From an uncultured Bacteroidales bacterium (GTDB lineage Bacteria > Bacteroidota > Bacteroidia > Bacteroidales > Bacteroidaceae), in the NCBI GenBank assembly GCA_902788275.1, contig CADAJV010000001.1, forward strand, positions 61,465 to 125,464: 64,000 bases of DNA. The letters run 5' to 3'. This document shows positions 23,833-51,998 of the stretch, in pieces. The first letter of the stretch is position 1. Every line of letters starts with the position of its first letter. The translations under genes and the position numbers were made by a program. The notes beneath the pieces were generated by a model, which saw nothing but the letters and a program-made list of their open reading frames with translations, ran no database searches and was not told the DNA's origin.

Positions 23833-23956
23833 GTTGTGAATTGCTCTCAAATTAGTAACTTTGCACTTGCATAAACAACATCGGTGCCTCCAAGGTGGAG
23901 GTGGAAATAGTTGTGAATTGCTCTCAAATTAGTAACTTTGCACTTGCATAAACAAC
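23833..23956 (+). CRISPR. Two-repeat CRISPR fragment beside ssrA
   Basis: Two perfect 47-bp repeats (23833-23879 and 23910-23956) flank one 30-bp spacer (23880-23909). The repeat is the reverse complement of that at 51352-51937, so it is given here in crRNA orientation. Each repeat carries a promoter-like GTTG-N19-TAACTTTG. The first repeat can express one complete crRNA (spacer plus second repeat). The second repeat is followed by ATC and then, at 23960, by the 22 bp shared with the split spacer at 51943-51964. No cas genes are adjacent. This is the detached leader-side end of the main array (see findings). Confidence 0.93.
23910..23940 (+). promoter_or_regulatory. Repeat-embedded promoter firing antisense into ssrA
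   Basis: GTTG at 23910-23913, 19 bp, TAACTTTG at 23933-23940. The predicted start near 23946-23948 would give a transcript antisense to the tmRNA 3' end. In the ancestral array it would have driven the lost spacer. Confidence 0.5.
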
Positions 23957-23960
23957 ATCG

Positions 23961-24358
23961 TGGACCAGGGGAGAGTCGAACTCCCGTCCAAACAAGGAAG
24001 CCATGCGCTTTCTACATGCTTAGTCAGGCTTTGATTGTCTGCCCTGTGGCCGGAGCCCGACGGCCAACCACAGGACATATCCTCTGAAGAATTTCGCCCA
24101 AGGCGCAAGGCCGCCTCAAGCTATCCCCGATTTGCTGCGCCGCCGGTTCAGTACGCTTCGGAGAAAGAGCGACTGGGCGACGTCTCGTTCCGCACCCTGG
24201 GCGCAGAATAAAGTAGTCCTACTGTGCTTCAGACTAAGCTGCGAGAGCGTAATTATTTTCGCCAGATAAATTTCTGATAGTTGCGTTTAGAGTGACCGCT
24301 ATCAACGCACTGCATGCTTACACACCTCTTAGCCTCGCTGTCAAATCCAGTCTGGCCC
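23961..24358 (-). ncRNA. ssrA: Transfer-messenger RNA (tmRNA)
   Basis: tmRNA rescues stalled ribosomes and tags the nascent chain. The acceptor stem GGGCCAG (5', ending at 24358) pairs with CTGGTCC (3'), with discriminator A at 23961. The 3' end has the T-arm-like GTTCGACTC loop. The tag reading frame (24234-24263, minus) is GENNYALAA followed by TAG, with the resume codon GGC. Length is about 398 nt. No terminator follows the 3' end; instead a CRISPR repeat starts 4 bp later. The expected terminator is at 51979-51998 next to a 22-bp copy of this 3' end. It is transcribed after tRNA-Ser and tRNA-Glu on the same strand. Confidence 0.95.
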
Positions 24359-24469
24359 GGATATCGCGTGGCGGGTAGGGAGAAAATAAACAGAGAAAAG
24401 ATAATTGACAATTGCTTGCCCTGCTCCTATTATCTCTTCTCCATTGTTCTATACCGCCAAGCGGTGATG

Positions 24470-24541
24470 TAGCGCCTACGGGACTCGAACCCGTGTACCC
24501 GGCGTGAGAGGCCGGTATCCTAACCACTAGATGAAAGCGCC
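24470..24541 (-). tRNA. tRNA-Glu (anticodon CUC)
   Basis: Acceptor GGCGCTT/AGGCGCT (two wobble pairs), anticodon loop CTCTCAC between CCGGC and GCCGG, T-loop TTCGAGT. The CCA end is not encoded. It is 72 nt, between tRNA-Ser and ssrA on the same strand. Confidence 0.93.
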
Positions 24542-24582
24542 AGTTGTGTATTGCTTTAGACGATTTACTATCTTCGTCTAAG

Positions 24583-24669
24583 CGGAAGCTAGGAGATTCG
24601 AACTCCTGGTACGGTTACCCGCACGGCAGTTTAGCAAACTGCTGGTTTAAGCCACTCACCCAAACTTCC
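24583..24669 (-). tRNA. tRNA-Ser (anticodon GCU)
   Basis: Acceptor GGAAGTT/AGCTTCC, anticodon loop TTGCTAA between GCAGT and ACTGC, a long variable arm as expected for serine tRNAs, T-loop TTCGAAT. It is 87 nt and the first gene of the tRNA-Ser, tRNA-Glu, ssrA operon. Confidence 0.93.
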
Positions 24670-24695
24670 AGTCCGCATCTCACTGAATGCGGGTG

Positions 24696-24726
24696 CAAAG
24701 GTAACACCTTTTTCCGAACCGCCAAA
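24696..24726 (-). promoter_or_regulatory. Promoter of the tRNA-Ser/tRNA-Glu/ssrA operon
   Basis: TTTG (24723-24726), 19 bp, TACCTTTG (24696-24703) on the minus strand: a consensus Bacteroidota promoter about 27 bp upstream of tRNA-Ser. Confidence 0.75.
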
Positions 24727-24817
24727 AGATTTCGCAAAAAAATTGCCACCACACAACAAAAAAAGTCAGGATTTTCTAATCCTAAAGGACGATTGGCTAA
24801 CGGTTATTGGCCATTGG

Positions 24818-49968: not shown

Positions 49969-50911
49969 TCAAGCGCACCCTATATTTCAGCCAGCCGATG
50001 TATCTGTCGCTGCGCGACAACCAGCTGGTAATGAAACTGCCGGAAGTCGAAAAGGATCATGACCACTATTCCCCTTCCGTCAGGGAGCAGGCTGTGCGCA
50101 CATTCCCCGTGGAGGACATTGGCGTGGTAATCCTTGACAACAAGCAGGTGACCGTCACCCATGCGCTTATGGATGCCTTGCTGCAGAACAACTGCGCCCT
50201 TATCACCTGCGACCAACGCTCGATGCCTTCGGGGCTGTTCCTGCCGCTTGCAAGGCACACGCTGCAAGAGGAGTGTTTCGCTTTCCAGATAGATGCCTCG
50301 CTGCCGCTCAAGAAACAGCTGTGGCAACAGACCGTAAGGCAGAAAATACTCAATCAGGCGGCACTGCTCAAGGCCGAGACTGCCACCGAGACACGATGTA
50401 TGGAGGCATGGGCAAAGGATGTAAAAAGCGGAGACTCCGACAATCTTGAAGCAAGAGCCGCAGCATATTACTGGAAGAATCTATTCAGTTCCTTCGGCAT
50501 AGAAAACTTTGTGAGAGGACGGGAGGAAGCTCCCCCCAACAATCTGCTCAACTATGGGTATGCCATATTGAGGGCTATCATAGCCCGTGCACTTGTTGGC
50601 AGCGGCCTACTGCCAACACTGGGCATACATCACCACAACCGGTATAATGCCTATGCTCTGGCCGATGACATAATGGAGAGCCCTACCGTCCTTTTGTTGA
50701 CAGAAAAGTGCTGGAGATAATGAAAAGCGGCATTGATTTCACAGAACTAAATAGAGACATCAAAGGAACACTGCTGACCATCCCAACGATGGATGTGATA
50801 ATCAACGGCCAACGCAGTCCTCTAATGATTGCAGCCTCCACCACCACTGCCAGCCTCGCAAAATGCTTTAGCGGGGAAAGTCGCAAACTTATCTTCCCTG
50901 AAATGCAATGA
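49965..50911 (+). pseudogene. cas1: Cas1 integrase, frameshifted by a 2-bp duplication
   Basis: The first frame (49965-50720) encodes 251 residues with the catalytic set of Cas1: E162 in LEARAAAYYWKNLF, H222-H224 in GIHHHNRYNAYALADDIME, D234/D235. At GGAGAG (50675-50680) the frame shifts and ends in an aberrant 13 residues. The expected continuation (PYRPFVDRKVLEIMKSGIDF...) is present in another frame to 50911; removing one AG dinucleotide joins both into a normal-length Cas1 of about 314 residues. The missing C-terminal 75 residues are a conserved helical part. Unless this is a sequence error, spacer integration is probably lost. Confidence 0.88.
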
Positions 50912-51243
50912 TTGAACGCTTCAGCGAATTTCGCATAATGTGGGTGTTAGTTTTCTTCGACTTGCCAACAGAAACTAAAAAGGACCGCAAAGAGGCGGCA
51001 CTTTTCCGCAAAGAACTGATGCGCGATGGATTCACTATGTTTCAGTTCAGTATATACACGCGCCACTGCGCCAGCGCAGAAAATGCCCAAGTTCACATCA
51101 AGAGGGTAAAAGCCATACTCCCCGAATATGGCAAGATAGGGATTATGTGCATTACTGACAAACAATTTGGAGATATGCAGATCTTCTATGGTCGCAAGGC
51201 GGCGCAGAAAGAACCACCGCCACTGCAACTGGAACTTTTCTAG
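50908..51243 (+). CDS. cas2: CRISPR-associated Cas2
   Basis: A 111-residue ferredoxin-fold protein with [17 protein letters not shown] (conserved aspartate) and [13 protein letters not shown], typical of type II-C Cas2. The C-terminus ends PPPLQLELF. Its ATG overlaps the original cas1 stop (ATGA). It is structural partner of Cas1 in spacer integration. Confidence 0.95.
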
Positions 51244-51250
51244 GAATAGC

Positions 51251-51283
51251 AAAAGACCTCTGCCATTATTGCAGAGGTCTTTT
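51251..51283. terminator. Bidirectional terminator between cas2 and the array
   Basis: AAAAGACCTCTGC and GCAGAGGTCTTTT form a perfect 13-bp hairpin with a 7-nt loop and a T-run on either strand. It can end the cas transcript (+) and the crRNA transcripts (-). Confidence 0.85.
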
Positions 51284-51351
51284 CTTTGCACAGTTTTTTA
51301 ATTCTGGTTTGCGCTGCATCTCATTGAAAGACTGTCTTTTATCAGCAATGA

Positions 51352-51937
51352 GTTGTTTATGCAAGTGCAAAGTTACTAATTTGAGAGCAATTCACAACAG
51401 AGTCTTAAGCAGCCGGCAGAAGATGCTGGTTGTTTATGCAAGTGCAAAGTTACTAATTTGAGAGCAATTCACAACCATGGTGGAGGTCACGGTGGTCAAC
51501 GGGCAGTTGTTTATGCAAGTGCAAAGTTACTAATTTGAGAGCAATTCACAACAGTCAATCATCGGACGCCCACGGAGCGGGAGTTGTTTATGCAAGTGCA
51601 AAGTTACTAATTTGAGAGCAATTCACAACGTTGTGGTGGTGGTGATGGTGTTTGGAATGTTGTTTATGCAAGTGCAAAGTTACTAATTTGAGAGCAATTC
51701 ACAACTGCACCTCTCCGTCAGGGAACACCATGCGGGTTGTTTATGCAAGTGCAAAGTTACTAATTTGAGAGCAATTCACAACAGACTGCGTATGCAGATG
51801 AGTGTCTGTGCGGGTTGTTTATGCAAGTGCAAAGTTACTAATTTGAGAGCAATTCACAACCTCAAGGCTATCGTAGGCTGCGTTGTTTGCGTTGTTTATG
51901 CAAGTGCAAAGTTACTAATTTGAGAGCAATTCACAAC
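51352..51937 (-). CRISPR. Type II-C CRISPR array, 8 repeats and 7 spacers
   Basis: Eight identical 47-bp repeats start at 51352, 51429, 51506, 51583, 51659, 51736, 51814 and 51891. The seven spacers are 29-31 bp (five of them 30). The crRNA-sense strand is the minus strand: the tracrRNA anti-repeat pairs with GTTGTGAATTGC..., and each repeat has a TAACTTTG box for transcription toward cas2. No terminal repeat is degenerate, so the array end at 51937 is abrupt. The next 5 bp plus 22 bp match half of a spacer and the ssrA 3' end. Confidence 0.96.
51907..51937 (-). promoter_or_regulatory. Repeat-embedded crRNA promoter (last repeat; same in all repeats)
   Basis: On the minus strand GTTG (51934-51937), 19 bp, TAACTTTG (51907-51914). 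The predicted start is about 8-10 nt before the spacer, giving short crRNAs without a leader promoter, as known for Neisseria type II-C arrays. Confidence 0.65.
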
Positions 51938-51967
51938 ATTCGGTTCGACTCTCCCCTGGTCCACTGA
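51938..51967. other. Split spacer / ssrA 3'-end copy (inversion junction)
   Basis: ATTCG (51938-51942) is the remaining part of a spacer. Positions 51943-51964 are identical over 22 bp to the ssrA 3' end plus one base (23981-23960, minus strand). TGA after 51964 is the old ssrA downstream flank. The partner piece is ATC at 23957-23959: 3 + 22 + 5 = 30 bp. Confidence 0.9.
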
Positions 51968-51978
51968 TTAATGAATAT

Positions 51979-51998
51979 GGTAGAGGCCTCTACCTGTT
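51979..51998 (+). terminator. Orphan terminator, probably the original one of ssrA
   Basis: GGTAGAGGCCTCTACC is a perfect 16-bp palindrome followed by TGTTTT. It starts 16 bp after the ssrA 3'-end copy, the correct distance for the ssrA terminator, while the intact ssrA gene has none. Confidence 0.75.

Follow-up and report, generated by a model that had tools for sequence, protein, structure and literature searches.

A split CRISPR array beside the tmRNA gene

The DNA analyzed here is a 64-kb stretch (the window, in which all coordinates are counted) of the genome of an uncultured Bacteroidales bacterium. It carries an array of clustered regularly interspaced short palindromic repeats (CRISPR) in two pieces, one of which adjoins ssrA, the gene for transfer-messenger RNA (tmRNA). 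The features are collected in Table 1. All ten repeats are 47 nt long and identical, and the two at 23833-23956 are opposite in orientation to the eight of the main array. Apart from these ten, no copy of the repeat was found in the assembly in a search with its first 34 nt in CRISPR RNA (crRNA) sense, allowing up to 3 mismatches. The crRNA sense was taken from a candidate trans-activating crRNA (tracrRNA) and corresponds to the minus strand of the main array. The smaller, distal fragment retains one full spacer between two repeats.

Table 1. Features of the split array, the tmRNA gene and the cas locus (window coordinates)
Feature	Position	Strand	Evidence or remark
CRISPR repeat, distal fragment of split array	23833..23879	- (main-array orientation)	same as eight main-array repeats
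Intact spacer, 30 nt, retained in distal fragment	23880..23909	-	
CRISPR repeat now adjoining ssrA	23910..23956	-	identical to main-array repeats
3-bp remnant of the putatively crossed-over spacer, between ssrA and nearest repeat	23957..23959	.	
22-bp putative crossover block = ssrA 3' end, T-loop to discriminator plus one base	23960..23981	-	
ssrA (tmRNA), complete, without ancestral terminator-like flank	23960..24358	-	ARAGORN; Rfam RF00023, 130.1 bits
Proposed inverted segment, ~28.0 kb	23960..51964	.	gene order in G016, G008, G011, G013, G012, G001
tracrRNA candidate: anti-repeat, hairpin, G+C-rich terminator-like hairpin	46120..46203	-	anti-repeat alignment 46182-46203
cas9, 1221 aa	46303..49968	+	TIGR01865, 485 bits
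cas1	49965..50720	+	TIGR03639, type II Cas1
cas2	50908..51243	+	TIGR01573
Main array portion: 8 repeats, 7 spacers	51352..51937	+ (cas-gene orientation; crRNA sense minus)	
5-bp remnant (ATTCG) of the putatively crossed-over spacer, end proximal to the protospacer-adjacent motif in crRNA sense	51938..51942	.	
22-bp putative crossover block, spacer part identical to ssrA 3' end	51943..51964	+	
Ancestral ssrA downstream flank, begins TGATTAATG	51965..51999	+	near-identical flank behind ssrA in G016

The two pieces share a 22-bp block. A preliminary description of this DNA had the main array ending at 51937, followed by 5 bp, 22 bp of the ssrA 3' end, TGATTAATG and a palindrome, and this reading is exact to the base; the palindrome is terminator-like and lies at 51979-51994. 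The same description placed two perfect, inverted repeats beyond ssrA after an interval of 3 bp, as is indeed found. The 22-mer occurs exactly twice in the 2.48-Mb assembly when up to 2 mismatches are allowed, and, CRISPR-repeat pairs aside, the window has no other exact inverted pair of at least 18 bp. The base past the discriminator A is a C, and the same C follows in the ssrA ends of the relatives displayed.

The ssrA gene encodes the tag GENNYALAA (ARAGORN), and no terminator-like site for it was found in 23600-24400. The gene thus appears to have stayed intact while losing its terminator-like site. A looser, degenerate 22-mer pattern gave one extra match in the assembly, a divergent ssrA end on contig 88. 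This second ssrA 3' part (L055, positions 33-348), 70% identical and located where a 4.2-kb contig begins, is either an additional gene copy or contamination from binning. The three bases behind it, GAT, also form the 3-bp end of the spacer, which may be coincidence.

Reconstruction of a single array

When 23960-51964 is re-inverted by script, the two pieces fuse into a single array of ten repeats and nine spacers. The spacer lengths become 30, 30, 30, 31, 30, 29, 30, 30 and 30 nt, the rejoined spacer being one of 30, and ssrA is then followed by TGATTAATG and the palindrome. The script thereby reproduces the exchange of partners over the 22 bp that had been proposed at the outset. Because one inversion mends both products, the length of the spacer and the flank of ssrA, and because gene order in relatives agrees (see below), we accept a real inversion that crossed over within the spacer/ssrA match; from sequence comparison it is strongly supported. 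The breakpoints are identical and inverted, the products are reciprocal, and relatives carry the ancestral order, all as in an inversion by reciprocal crossover. The point of crossover lies anywhere inside the 22 bp. Two other geometries were rejected: inversion at the 47-bp repeats, since all copies share one orientation before the inversion, and an island bounded by direct repeats, since the two 22-mers are inverted.

The ancestor would have carried one 10-repeat type II (II-C-like) array in which the second spacer from the far end, 30 bp long, had 22 bp equal to the 3' end of the host ssrA, from T-loop to acceptor end. With this spacer and ssrA lying inverted and 28 kb apart on the same chromosome, a reciprocal crossover of the two would then have flipped 23960-51964. 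At ssrA, such an event would leave the gene intact and newly joined to two CRISPR repeats; the main array would come to end in 27 of the 30 bp of the spacer, followed by the former ssrA flank. Taken as a whole, this explanation (array ancestor, spacer-ssrA crossover and inversion) is very probable. The earlier statement that the spacer was destroyed went too far, for the 27 bp that adjoin the repeat ending at 51937 include the end proximal to the protospacer-adjacent motif (PAM), and the loss is confined to 3 bp and the repeat upstream. The inverted segment contains ssrA, tRNA-Glu, tRNA-Ser, thiC and other genes, tRNA-Val, tRNA-Met, the tracrRNA candidate, cas9-cas1-cas2 and most of the array.

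Gene order in related genomes

Gene order was compared in six genus members (G016, G008, G011, G013, G012 and G001), leaving out nine with more divergent ssrA. In all six, ssrA is followed by the genes that in the window now lie past the array. The closest view is given by G016, in which ssrA is 98% identical and is followed directly by a near-identical flank with the same palindrome (L004); the preliminary description had pointed to sister genomes for just this arrangement. The alignment of G016 contig 1 with the window falls into two runs of opposite direction, 23960-42953 and 51943-63718, which join at ssrA; the re-inverted window is collinear with this contig, a single high-scoring segment pair of 7,055 columns crossing the ssrA junction. 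The stretch 51965-53317 aligned in G016 only; in the other five genomes, the window block from 53318-53321 onward starts 129-246 bp after ssrA.

The other side of the inversion tells the same story. The window region at 42.7-44.5 kb, with tRNA-Val (and tRNA-Met too in G008 and G011), is linked in inverted orientation to the sequence at 23763 and below in three of three relatives. The distance between the tRNA-Val block and the 23763 flank is 1.3-2.5 kb in G008 and G011, and a 13-kb block intervenes in G016. Because relatives carry the un-inverted order on both sides, the inversion predicted from the array is the same one that gene order requires. The proposal of an inversion therefore stands on the order of genes in relatives, with its first base moved from 23961 to 23960. 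Relatives in which ssrA is always followed by the CRISPR repeat would have told otherwise, and there are none among the 14 other genus members displayed (no CRISPR repeat within 90 nt after ssrA).

Outside the inverted segment, the block 1257-17007, which ends by tRNA-Gln, has another position relative to 17243-23763 in contig 24 of G016, where it comes soon after tRNA-Val, and it is unaligned in the stretches of G011 and G008 that were compared. From these alignments, the block seems to have moved between relatives.

Origin of the spacer

Read in crRNA sense, the reconstructed spacer consists of 3 bp, 22 bp and 5 bp, with the 5 bp proximal to the PAM. Compared with the ancestral ssrA, the middle 22 bp are identical, and every base of the flanking 3 bp and 5 bp differs. 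Because both of its ends differ from ssrA, the spacer was probably not captured from the host gene. The 22-bp block spans the T-loop to the 3' end of ssrA, which is the layout of ssrA attachment cores, and this extent together with the differing spacer ends fits an origin in the attachment site of a mobile element (attP). We infer that the attP of an ssrA-integrating element is the probable source. Capture from an attachment site, as first suggested, thus keeps its plausibility, although the searches described below turned up neither a protospacer nor an element integrated at ssrA nor an integrase to match.

The preliminary description had proposed a search for the reconstructed spacer in sister genomes and in attP sequences of phages and integrative elements. 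A search of 301 family and 393 order genomes (overlapping samples, each including the window's own genome) with the 30-mer and up to 3 mismatches returned only the window's own copy. Patterns for the left half, right half and core gave nothing convincing as a protospacer in IMG/VR. A BLAST search of INPHARED with the 30-mer gave no protospacer, the best 20 of 154 records all having an E value of 8; one record outside these 20 showed at least 99% identity, over a match length that was not seen. The same search of PLSDB also gave no protospacer, with three records at E values of 0.4 to 2. The 22-bp core was found in two records of the genome contig collection, both of them ssrA itself. For two of the eight intact spacers, the distal one and the one at 51861-51890, parts of 24 and 23 nt gave no exact match in IMG/VR. 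Among 18 other genus members, none has a second ssrA end (15 have one copy and 3 none), with the qualification that a backwards control of the pattern also matched once each in G003 and G016. In the 15 other genus members that have an ssrA match, the contigs with ssrA, many of them short, gave no match to the tyrosine recombinase family PF00589.

Three viral contigs in IMG/VR carry the 22-mer in tmRNA-like sequence, two exactly (L080 and L081) and one with a single variant base (L082). ARAGORN marks a tmRNA* in L082, alongside eight tRNA genes, and reports nothing in L080 and L081, which are tmRNA-like by eye only; we take the tmRNA* label to denote a permuted gene. These contigs speak for another source, with a true inversion whose spacer derived from a (permuted) tmRNA gene of a phage instead of an attachment site and then recombined through short homology. 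In all three contigs, though, the 22-mer follows gacggga, the sequence found there in the host ssrA as well; the spacer has ATTCG at this place, which would break the T-stem. A phage tmRNA gene is an unlikely source.

The ends of the spacer also bear on whether the CRISPR system itself drove the rearrangement, with Cas9 or Cas1-Cas2 at work and a self-targeting cut in ssrA joined by repair. Self-targeting has been reported alongside deletions and rearrangements at the target, according to a passage in a review (PMC8616872). Here, the five PAM-proximal bases mismatch ssrA (in the crRNA sense given by the tracrRNA candidate), so that the spacer should not direct cleavage of ssrA. Self-targeting cleavage was rejected on this seed mismatch, and a rearrangement driven by the Cas proteins is extremely improbable.

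Mechanism of the crossover

The sequence is unable to separate an integrase from short homology, because the only homology between the two sites is also the supposed core. We lean slightly toward short-homology recombination, since no integrase is in sight and the 30-bp spacer has no arm sites. Action by an integrase of the same element on two copies of the core is a serious contender that falls a little short of probable. If an element resided at ssrA, integrase and arm sites could both have come from it in a two-step process. The most specific version, in which the attP-derived spacer worked as an attachment core and the integrase of an ssrA-specific element recombined it with the host ssrA, is possible but doubtful.

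Several points weigh against the account favored here, some against the inversion and others against the proposed source and machinery. A single fragmented assembly of 93 contigs, 86.8% complete and probably a metagenome-assembled genome, is the source of the inverted state, and it comes without reads and without a second genome of the species. The searches of IMG/VR, INPHARED, PLSDB and the family and order samples brought up no element bearing such an attP. The assembly has four PF00589 matches, and these are on other contigs (8, 12, 19 and 63); the resolvase family PF00239 was not found, in a search whose control matched 10 of 14 genomes, Bacteroides ihuae not among them. For RecA-type recombination, 22 bp is a short stretch, and the 30-bp spacer lacks the arm sites on which tyrosine integrases usually depend. 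As a separate observation, the PF00589 locus on contig 8 holds a tRNA-Arg gene.

The state of the assembly raises the question of a chimera, in which the junctions were swapped at the shared 22-mer and the chromosome is un-inverted; the match between spacer and ssrA would even then be real. All relatives examined are un-inverted, which is also how an artefact would look. A chimera needs a reciprocal swap of both junctions at a 22-bp repeat, and repeats of that length are shorter than the larger k-mers of assemblers and are normally resolved. Nor could the 47-bp repeats have caused the exchange, being in one orientation before the inversion. An assembly chimera is therefore very unlikely, and a true inversion is the reading retained here.

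The CRISPR-Cas locus

The system appears to be type II and II-C-like, with cas9, cas1 and cas2 beside the repeat array and a predicted tracrRNA with an anti-repeat. The fold of 46115-46210, which includes the tracrRNA candidate, has a z score of -4.40. Neither csn2 nor cas4 was found at the locus, to which the search for these two genes was confined. Two open reading frames (ORFs) upstream of cas9 (44580-45029 and 45388-45924) have no Pfam match, and the first plus-strand ORF of at least 90 aa behind cas2 starts at 52178, past the array.

In crRNA sense, the repeat carries a promoter-like motif, TTG-N19-TAACTTTG, which resembles the Bacteroidetes promoter consensus. In the type II-C system of Campylobacter jejuni, each repeat contains a promoter, according to part of a published study (PMC3656092). 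The crossed-over spacer has no upstream repeat; if each repeat bears a promoter, the guide from 51938-51964 is probably silent, and the other guides can still be made. The motif in the repeat next to ssrA (23910-23956) is directed antisense into ssrA. Because it faces the gene from behind, antisense transcription of tmRNA from the neighboring repeat is possible.

A 41-nt stretch at 45085-45125, upstream of the 149-aa minus-strand ORF 44580-45029, resembles the CRISPR repeat and is either a degenerate repeat or a similarly shaped promoter. Cas9 is 93% identical in G016 (contig 21) and 73% identical in G008 (contig 73). On both of these contigs, DNA similarity ends at a common left edge near 46120, and the surroundings cannot be aligned with the window. 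The cas/array locus (46120-51937) may thus have moved as a unit between relatives.

Comparison with known systems and implications

In staphylococci, recombination between spacers and their targets in phages was reported in a 2019 study (as cited in PMC8616872 and PMC10434264). There, as here, a spacer is the recombination partner of a homologous sequence; the staphylococcal partner is an invading phage and the result is transfer of the CRISPR locus, whereas in the present case a host RNA gene of the same chromosome takes the part of the phage and an inversion splits the array. In Thermotoga, large inversions are associated with CRISPRs (DeBoy et al. 2006, as cited in PMC5637354). CRISPRs are likewise credited there with large chromosomal recombination, but in the present case the breakpoint is one spacer inside one array. 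The tyrosine integrase of Thermococcus pTN3 inverts chromosome segments between att sites (PMC5495485; PMC8371274); in contrast, an integrase is conjectural here, and a spacer would stand in for one of the sites. The ssrA-specific genomic islands of Dehalococcoides have 20-bp ssrA repeats that begin at the T-loop (PMC3146451), as the 22-bp block does. Unlike those islands, whose putative integrase is a serine recombinase, the present case has a copy of the core inside a CRISPR array and no island at ssrA. Varble and colleagues (2021, as cited in PMC10434264) reportedly described prophage integration into CRISPR loci of Streptococcus pyogenes. Both cases involve recombination of mobile DNA at a CRISPR locus, but nothing is inserted here. 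The literature searched, mostly by title and abstract, yielded no report of a spacer and a tmRNA gene recombining to invert part of their own chromosome.

At this well-resolved locus, for which relatives give the ancestral order, a chromosomal inversion has its breakpoint in a single CRISPR spacer. The finding suggests that an immune memory of attachment-site sequence has its price, since an array that then holds a partial copy of a host tRNA or tmRNA gene becomes a recombination partner. If the spacer did serve as a working core, then immune memory of an att site would provide the integrase with a second landing place, with the chromosome flipped and that spacer disarmed as a result. The case suggests a survey of spacers that match tRNA and tmRNA 3' ends from the T-loop on, and of arrays broken at such spacers.

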